Shown here in pieces: positions 57,732 to 63,321 of a stretch of DNA of 64,000 nucleotides. Position numbers and translations under genes: made by a program. The stretch is from contig NZ_KE356561.1 of NCBI RefSeq assembly GCF_000415985.1, positions 915,860 to 979,859 of the forward strand. Reading direction: 5' to 3'. This DNA comes from Haloquadratum walsbyi J07HQW2. Its GTDB lineage: Archaea > Halobacteriota > Halobacteria > Halobacteriales > Haloferacaceae. Numbering within the stretch: position 1 is the stretch's first letter; each line of letters opens with the position of its first letter. Under the pieces are notes generated by a model, which made no database searches, was not told the origin of the DNA, and saw only the letters and a program-made list of their open reading frames with translations.

Positions 57732-59141
57732 TTACTCTAGGAGTGTTGAATCATCAGACGCGTCGCGGGCTGCGTTGAGAAGAAGTTCCTGCTCAGCACG
57801 GGCAACAACGCGACGAACATCATCGACAGCATCGATATTCGAAGAGAGAGAACTAATTCCTTGTTCAGCAAGGAACTTCGCCATCTCAGGGTCTGAGCCG
57901 GATTGTCCTGTGATGGTAGTATCAACATCATGCTCGTTGCACGCTTCAATAACTTCTGCCATCGCTTCGAGTATTGTTGGATGATAGTTATCAAAGCGGT
58001 CTGCAACCATTGCATTGTTTCGGTCAACTGCGAGCATGAACTGGACGATATCATTGGTACCGAGCGCAACGAAATCAACACCCTCATCAATAATCTCATC
58101 AATTGACCGGATACTAGCCGGCGTTTCAATCATTGCTCCCCAATCATATGCATCTCGATCAATGCCCACTTTATCCATCAGCTCTCGCGCTCGGCGCACA
58201 TCTTCTGCGTCATTAGGAAGCGGAAACATAACTTCAAGATTGTCATAGCCCATATCGTGTAAGCGTTTAAACGCCCGCAGTTCGAGCTTGACCATTTCTG
58301 GTTCCTGCAGACTCCGCCGAATCCCACGGTATCCCAGCATCGGATTATGTTCAATAGGTTCAGATTCCCCTCCCTCGAGTTCAGCAAGTTCGTCTGTTGG
58401 TGCATCAAGTGTGCGAGCCCGCACTGGGCGGGGGTAGAAGGCGTCTGCGACCTTCCGGATCTCCTCTGAAATCTCCTTGACGAAGGCTTCCTCGCCGTGG
58501 TCTGCGACGTACTGGTCCGGTGTCTTCCCCGTTGAAAGGAGAATATGCTCTAATCGGAGTAATCCAACACCATCGGCGTTCGTATCAGCAGCCCGTTGAG
58601 CTGCTCCGGGAATAGAGACATTCACCTTCACTTCTGTGGCTGTTGTCGGGACGTATTCAGCTGAGTCATCAATAGAACCATTAGTCCGGTCAGTTTCTGC
58701 GGTTCTCTCTGGTGTTGACTCTGAATCCAGCGTCGACTCTGATTCGGATTTCGGCTCTCCAATGACAACTGTTCCCTTCTCACCGTCAAGTGTGACTCGT
58801 TGACCGTCAGAAAGCGCTTCCGTTGCATCCCCACAGCCAACAATAGCTGGGACCCCGAGTTCGCGTGAGACGATGGCTGCATGTGACGTCATTCCGCCAT
58901 TGTCGGTTATAATCCCAGTTGAGCGCTGCATTGCGGGTACCATGTCAGGGGCGGTCATCTCAGTGACAATTACGTCACCCTCAGTAATCTGCCCTGCATC
59001 GTCGATATCCTTGATGACCCGTGCCGGTCCCGTCGCGACCCCTGGACTTGCTCCATATCCACGAGCTAATTCTGTCCCTGGTTCGGGGTTATGCTCTGAT
59101 TCTGTTTCTTCACTGATCGCTTCGGTCTTTTTTTGTGTCAT
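57732..59141 (-). CDS. PEP synthase-like protein lacking the ATP-grasp domain and catalytic Cys
   Basis: A 469-residue protein equal to the C-terminal two-thirds of PEP synthase. The swivelling phospho-His domain is present (GGMTSHAAIVSRELGVPAIVG, His87), as is the PEP-binding TIM barrel (RTLDAPTDELAELEGGESEP, GAMIETPASIRSI, ALGTNDIVQFMLAVDRNNAM). The N-terminal ATP-grasp domain is absent. The barrel Cys that acts as general acid in PpsA/PPDK is Thr411 (TITGQSGSDPE). A Ser/Glu-rich linker (130-165) joins the domains. The ATG is 6 bases after gapII, so they are one operon. Full PEP synthesis is unlikely; a regulatory or phosphotransfer role is possible. Confidence 0.85.
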   Translation of the reverse strand: MTQKKTEAISEETESEHNPEPGTELARGYGASPGVATGPARVIKDIDDAGQITEGDVIVTEMTAPDMVPAMQRSTGIITDNGGMTSHAAIVSRELGVPAIVGCGDATEALSDGQRVTLDGEKGTVVIGEPKSESESTLDSESTPERTAETDRTNGSIDDSAEYVPTTATEVKVNVSIPGAAQRAADTNADGVGLLRLEHILLSTGKTPDQYVADHGEEAFVKEISEEIRKVADAFYPRPVRARTLDAPTDELAELEGGESEPIEHNPMLGYRGIRRSLQEPEMVKLELRAFKRLHDMGYDNLEVMFPLPNDAEDVRRARELMDKVGIDRDAYDWGAMIETPASIRSIDEIIDEGVDFVALGTNDIVQFMLAVDRNNAMVADRFDNYHPTILEAMAEVIEACNEHDVDTTITGQSGSDPEMAKFLAEQGISSLSSNIDAVDDVRRVVARAEQELLLNAARDASDDSTLLE

Positions 59142-62850: not shown

Positions 62851-63321
62851 ATGGAATACACCGAATTAATTACACTACGAACAGACGGGGGCAAGACAAA
62901 TGATAATATGGACTCAAATGGGGCATATGACAAGAACGAGCCAGTCGAATTCAGTATGACGATTGAGGATGGGGAAACGATAATTAAAATGCATGGTGAC
63001 AGAGATACAGCAGTGATTGTGCAATCAGCGTCGGGAGAGCGCGTGTATCTACCTCCAGAGGATTTTGAACGGGCTGCTCCGACCTCAAAACAAAATGAGA
63101 GTGCATATCAGTCTGCCTCTACTGATAGTCCATATCAATCTGCAGCGACTGATAGCCCGTATCAGTCTGCCTCCACCGACAGCCCATATCAATCTTCGGG
63201 GACCGACAGTCCGTATCAGTCCGCACGACAACACTCAGATGAAGAGGGACTAGTATCGACAACAGAAGGCTACTGTATCTATCATCCCGAACCAGCAACA
63301 GACGTACGAGTCCTCCGATAG
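62851..63321 (+). CDS. Acidic protein with five tandem 9-residue SPYQSxxTD repeats
   Basis: A 156-residue protein. The globular part (about 30-75) has EFSMTIEDGETIIKMHGDRDTAVIVQSASGERVYLPPEDF, a compact beta fold with a haloarchaeal look. Residues 84-128 contain five consecutive 9-mers of form S-P-Y-Q-S-x-x-T-D. The conserved end YCIYHPEPATDVRVLR follows. The second in-frame ATG (62908) is an alternative start. No enzyme motif is seen. The repeat resembles a tether or low-affinity binding tail. A T7 run at 63323-63329 may terminate transcription. Confidence 0.75.
   Translation: MEYTELITLRTDGGKTNDNMDSNGAYDKNEPVEFSMTIEDGETIIKMHGDRDTAVIVQSASGERVYLPPEDFERAAPTSKQNESAYQSASTDSPYQSAATDSPYQSASTDSPYQSSGTDSPYQSARQHSDEEGLVSTTEGYCIYHPEPATDVRVLR
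63100..63234 (+). repeat. 27-bp coding tandem repeat, five units
   Basis: Five in-frame 27-base units encode SPYQS(A/S)(S/A/G)TD. Codons for the Tyr-Gln-Ser core are nearly constant (TATCAGTCT/TATCAATCT), while third positions elsewhere vary. Mixed synonymous changes point to an established, not freshly duplicated, array. Confidence 0.8.

Follow-up and report, generated by a model that had tools for sequence, protein, structure and literature searches.

A short PEP synthase paralog with a fixed Cys-to-Thr change forms a tight gene pair with a diverged type II GAPDH in haloarchaea

In the 64,000-nucleotide stretch of Haloquadratum walsbyi J07HQW2 DNA analyzed here (the window), a short relative of archaeal PEP synthase, which we call PPS', is encoded next to a paralog of type II GAPDH, GAPDH' (Table 1). 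The locus raises the question of what a PEP synthase relative can do without the part of the enzyme that handles ATP and why it should be paired with a GAPDH. By name alone the pair would be assigned as PEP synthase and GAPDH and thus to gluconeogenesis, despite concerted changes in the active sites and the presence of normal copies of each in the genome. Our literature search found no paper on the PPS' gene or on the PPS'-GAPDH' pair. From sequence comparisons, we tentatively favor the reading that PPS' is an old, specialized PEP synthase paralog and the dedicated partner of GAPDH' in an accessory module, which would make no PEP alone and would move phosphate via His87, a proposal that we consider plausible but short of probable.

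Table 1. Positions of PPS', its domains and key codons, and the neighboring module genes in the window
Feature	Positions	Strand	Evidence
Usp (universal stress protein), 142 aa	53633..54061	-	Pfam Usp; 15/15 module genomes (one partial), 0/26 controls
Non-canonical Nramp-like transporter, 485 aa	54343..55800	+	NCBIfam Nramp_1, 73 bits; 14/15 module genomes
PPS', short PEP synthase paralog, 469 aa	57732..59141	-	Mobile phospho-His and PEP-binding domains, no ATP-grasp; ATG to stop; 16 orthologs
PEP-binding TIM-barrel domain of PPS', residues 161-450	57792..58661	-	Pfam PF02896 (PEP-utilizers_C), E 8e-70; Foldseek 8a8e, E 1.6e-26 on medium-confidence model
Thr411 codon of PPS', replacing catalytic Cys of PpsA	57909..57911	-	Thr in 16/16 short forms, Cys in 56/56 full-length
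Acidic linker of PPS', residues 128-163, fast-evolving	58653..58760	-	dN/dS 0.07-1.5 vs 0-0.11 in domains
Mobile (swivel) phospho-His domain of PPS', residues 53-123	58773..58985	-	Pfam PF00391 (PEP-utilizers), E 6e-29
His87 codon of PPS', expected phosphorylated histidine	58881..58883	-	Invariant, 16 short and 56 full-length proteins
GAPDH', diverged type II GAPDH paralog, 330 aa	59148..60140	-	6 bp upstream of PPS'; retains Cys139, lacks the Arg-Arg loop
Small membrane-type protein, 68 aa	60256..60462	+	Divergent from GAPDH'; no Pfam/NCBIfam match; 15/15 module genomes of family, 0/26 controls
Small membrane-type protein, 80 aa	60549..60791	+	15/15 module genomes of family, 0/26 controls

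The initial annotation had described a protein that keeps the phospho-His and PEP-binding domains and lacks ATP-grasp, and the domain searches agree. Only PEP-utilizers and PEP-utilizers_C scored above the Pfam cut-offs, next to a subthreshold Radical_SAM match; no ATP-grasp domain was found with Pfam, the protein beginning at the linker that precedes the swivel domain. PPS' aligns with residues 361-805 of the archaeal PEP synthase 8a8e (E 2e-128), and its best solved relatives are the PEP synthases 8a8e and 9dae, the latter from Staphylothermus marinus. Because the N-terminal half is missing, it falls below the cut-offs of the PEP synthase models (465.8 bits against 739.75 for TIGR01418 and 483.8 against 598 for PRK06464), and it scores far higher on these than on models of PTS Enzyme I (EI) or PPDK, with 195.4 bits on the EI model TIGR01417 (cut-off of 341.7). 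An AlphaFold model of medium confidence (pLDDT 67) was used for the fold and the placement of Thr411 only.

The alignment to 8a8e sets the motif SICGQAGS of PpsA opposite TITGQSGS in PPS' and bears out the earlier proposal that a Thr stands where the general-acid Cys is expected: all 16 short forms have Thr at position 411, where all 56 full-length PpsA proteins have Cys. In the medium-confidence predicted structure, this Thr appears to terminate the last barrel strand. We also examined whether the catalytic Cys might lie elsewhere. Cys401, although conserved, was rejected: it belongs to the helix that comes before, and in the genome's own PpsA a Cys at that position accompanies the catalytic one. 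In PPDK and EI, the catalytic Cys protonates or deprotonates C3 of the enol/pyruvate, and its loss is expected to block the interconversion of PEP and pyruvate; our literature search found no EI or PPDK mutants in which this Cys was altered. By itself, PPS' would be unable to form PEP from ATP and pyruvate.

The rest of the active site has been kept. His87, Arg196, Arg243, Arg272, Arg276, Glu339, Asn363, Asp364, and Arg374 are unchanged in the 16 short forms and the 56 PpsA proteins, and Arg275 is constant across all short forms. Glu339 and Asp364 are the Mg ligands and the Arg residues form the PEP site. Further concerted changes relative to PpsA, including L345R and T369M, lie near the active site. 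On the reading that we favor, PEP or a related 2-oxo acid or enol phosphate would still be bound with Mg at Arg196, Arg243, Glu339, Asn363, Asp364, and Arg374, and a phosphoryl group would shuttle between this ligand site and His87. The conserved ligand residues are suited to a sensor as well: PPS' could be a pseudoenzyme that senses PEP or pyruvate, with a phosphate held on His87 perhaps serving as a signal, and that controls GAPDH' or the transporter of the module. The loss of ATP-grasp and of the catalytic Cys with retention of the ligand residues would fit such a role, as would the neighboring Usp gene, and a sensor acting by protein contact needs no output or DNA-binding domain. However, the full swivel motif around His87 is kept as strictly as the ligand site, which exceeds what simple binding needs, and we regard a sensor as somewhat unlikely.

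In its combination of a swivel His domain with a PEP-binding barrel and no ATP-grasp, PPS' resembles EI, the PEP-protein phosphotransferase of the PTS, and an EI-like protein is encoded in the same genome (C1:1201889). PPS' might thus exchange phosphate with the PTS proteins of the cell as an EI without its HPr-binding part. However, the sequence is of the PpsA type and only 34% identical to the genome's own EI, the HPr-binding part was not found (no match to the PEP-utilisers N-terminal domain at E 0.1), and the module contains no PTS gene. The Cys that PPS' has lost takes part in EI chemistry too, and we consider this role very unlikely.

The closest known system is archaeal PEP synthase itself (PpsA; pyruvate, water dikinase, EC 2.7.9.2), with which PPS' shares about 60% identity across its two domains and the active-site His, Arg, Glu, Asn, and Asp residues. 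It differs in the absence of ATP-grasp, the Thr in place of the catalytic Cys, class-specific changes such as those at positions 345 and 369, and an operon of its own with a GAPDH paralog. A separate full-length PpsA, for which the initial annotation had advised a check, is present at C1:2781923; it has 791 residues, retains the Cys, and is 62% identical to PPS' over 456 residues. In Haloferax volcanii, growth on acetate requires PpsA (PMC7746861), and gluconeogenesis in a haloarchaeon can therefore do without PPS'. Given the similarity between the two proteins in this genome, PPS' might also assemble with full-length PpsA, either inactive or with a regulatory role in the complex; contact would be made by the C-terminal domain, which builds octahedral 24-mers in archaea. 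PEP synthase of Staphylothermus is a 24-mer in an octahedral arrangement (PMC8100219), and PPS' is ∼50% identical to the archaeal C-terminal octahedral core of 8a8e. Against such a subunit, the operon partner of PPS' is GAPDH' and not ppsA. In addition, nearly all genomes of the class have a PpsA-like match but few have PPS', and the arrangement seems quite unlikely to us. Separately, ∼5 kb from full-length ppsA, we observed a pyruvate kinase gene with a C-terminal swivel-like extension (C1:2787931; L004:61-1824).

PPS' had been described as remnant-like, a view that its phylogeny does not support. The 16 short forms come from 15 of 170 genomes of the family and from one genome of another haloarchaeal family (G250). 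Within the family, the carriers are the source genome, Haloquadratum walsbyi J07HQW1 (G100), A07HR60 (G156), LUM.70 (G157), and 11 of the 12 members of genus g18, which includes Haloplanus ruber; the sole g18 member without the GAPDH'-PPS' pair is G072. Among the matches listed for a 393-genome sample of the phylum, there was no additional complete short form, and the only other frames there near the length of PPS', in G450 and G467, begin within ∼220 bases of contig position 1. In a maximum-likelihood tree under a mixture model, all 16 short forms make up one clade with 100/99 support. A quick tree places this clade beside all haloarchaeal PpsA proteins (support of 91), which argues that the paralog is old and has often been lost or moved horizontally, although its exact attachment is unsure because the tree program flagged long branches.

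Pairwise dN/dS was 0 to 0.08 for the mobile domain, 0.015 to 0.11 for the PEP-binding domain, and 0.07 to 1.5 for the linker. Both domains are therefore under strong purifying selection, with the linker as an unconstrained tether. The initial annotation had taken the intact frame and the acidic linker as signs of selection; selection holds for the domains, but the linker, being nearly free to change, is no evidence for it. These values and the deep conservation led us to reject a pseudogene. A functionless, decaying fragment of a ppsA duplicate would explain why the N-terminal half of PpsA is missing, but given the purifying selection, the clean ATG-to-stop frames in 16 genomes, the invariant active-site residues, and the old single origin, its probability is negligible.

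The proposed coupling to a gluconeogenic GapII stood in part. At all 16 loci, 0 to 10 nucleotides separate the GAPDH' stop codon from the PPS' start codon, and within the family GAPDH' is restricted to the 15 genomes with PPS', so the coupling is tight. The partner is not GapII, however, but a diverged paralog, 52% identical to the conventional copy located ∼1.5 Mb away at C1:2512557. Each genome with PPS' carries two type II GAPDH genes, and other family members have the conventional kind only. GAPDH' resembles the phosphorylating type II archaeal enzyme in passing the NCBIfam equivalog cut-offs (407.5 bits on NF003251, with a cut-off of 185) and in retaining the catalytic Cys139 in the motif SCNTTG. 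Unlike it, GAPDH' has lost the RRGGDP loop after the catalytic strand, which is deleted in 16 of 16 GAPDH' proteins and present in 17 of 17 conventional haloarchaeal copies, has RHHFH in place of LMHxH, and carries some 40 fixed, concerted differences. The Arg pair lost with the loop is presumably the one that binds phosphate in archaeal structures. This pattern of substitution suggests an altered substrate.

The pair is accompanied by four more genes, for Usp, the Nramp-like transporter, and the two small membrane-type proteins (Table 1); for Usp and the small proteins, the controls were a chosen subset of 26 family genomes that included G072. Among the 170 family genomes, the transporter was found in 14 of the 15 module genomes and otherwise only as a fragment in the draft genome G002. 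Its annotation as a divalent metal transporter is doubtful, since it matches the NCBIfam Nramp model but no Pfam Nramp model and has IGGGE where Nramp proteins have DPGN. Inherited as a unit with GAPDH' and these four genes, PPS' looks like a working part of a module rather than a decaying remnant, and its occurrence together with the transporter and the small membrane proteins suggests that Haloquadratum and Haloplanus have a metabolic module not described before. A linked island inherited as a whole may account for part of this co-distribution within one family, and only two cases argue against simple linkage. One is G073, which retains the transporter and Usp even though they are ∼48 kb away from the pair. 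The other is the distant copy in G250, where consecutive genes encode GAPDH', PPS', and a DHDPS-family aldolase, and a Nramp-like transporter and Usp lie upstream; the latter two are only ∼21 to 32% identical to the family versions, so that this neighborhood may be a coincidence. The aldolase was considered as a further core enzyme and rejected, as relatives occur in 42 of 42 genomes tested, whether or not these carry the module.

The favored reading of PPS' as the dedicated partner of GAPDH' has the support of the invariant site residues including Thr411, the single clade, the low domain dN/dS, the adjacency to GAPDH' at 16 of 16 loci, and the co-distribution. A conserved phospho-His and ligand site, with no ATP domain or general acid and fixed to a respecialized GAPDH, argues for a phosphate-handling unit of the two proteins, which would act on a compound that the module takes into the cell. 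A separate partner would substitute for the ATP-grasp site, most simply through the acyl-phosphate chemistry of GAPDH'. One specific form of this proposal is a split phosphotransfer in which GAPDH' makes or reduces the acyl phosphate of a new aldehyde and His87 of PPS' carries the phosphate in either direction between GAPDH' and a PEP-like 2-oxo acid. We find this version improbable as it stands; if true, it would connect the oxidation of an aldehyde to enol-phosphate chemistry independently of ATP, and the Nramp-like transporter would bring in the compound. PPS' would also show what becomes of a PEP-utilizing site that has lost its proton donor and ATP domain.

Two further genes were noted near these loci. 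In G250, the module is followed ∼3 kb downstream by a gene for an aldehyde ferredoxin oxidoreductase (L154:13376-15040), and the window encodes a DUF7510 protein with tandem DSPYQSA repeats on the plus strand at positions 62851-63321.
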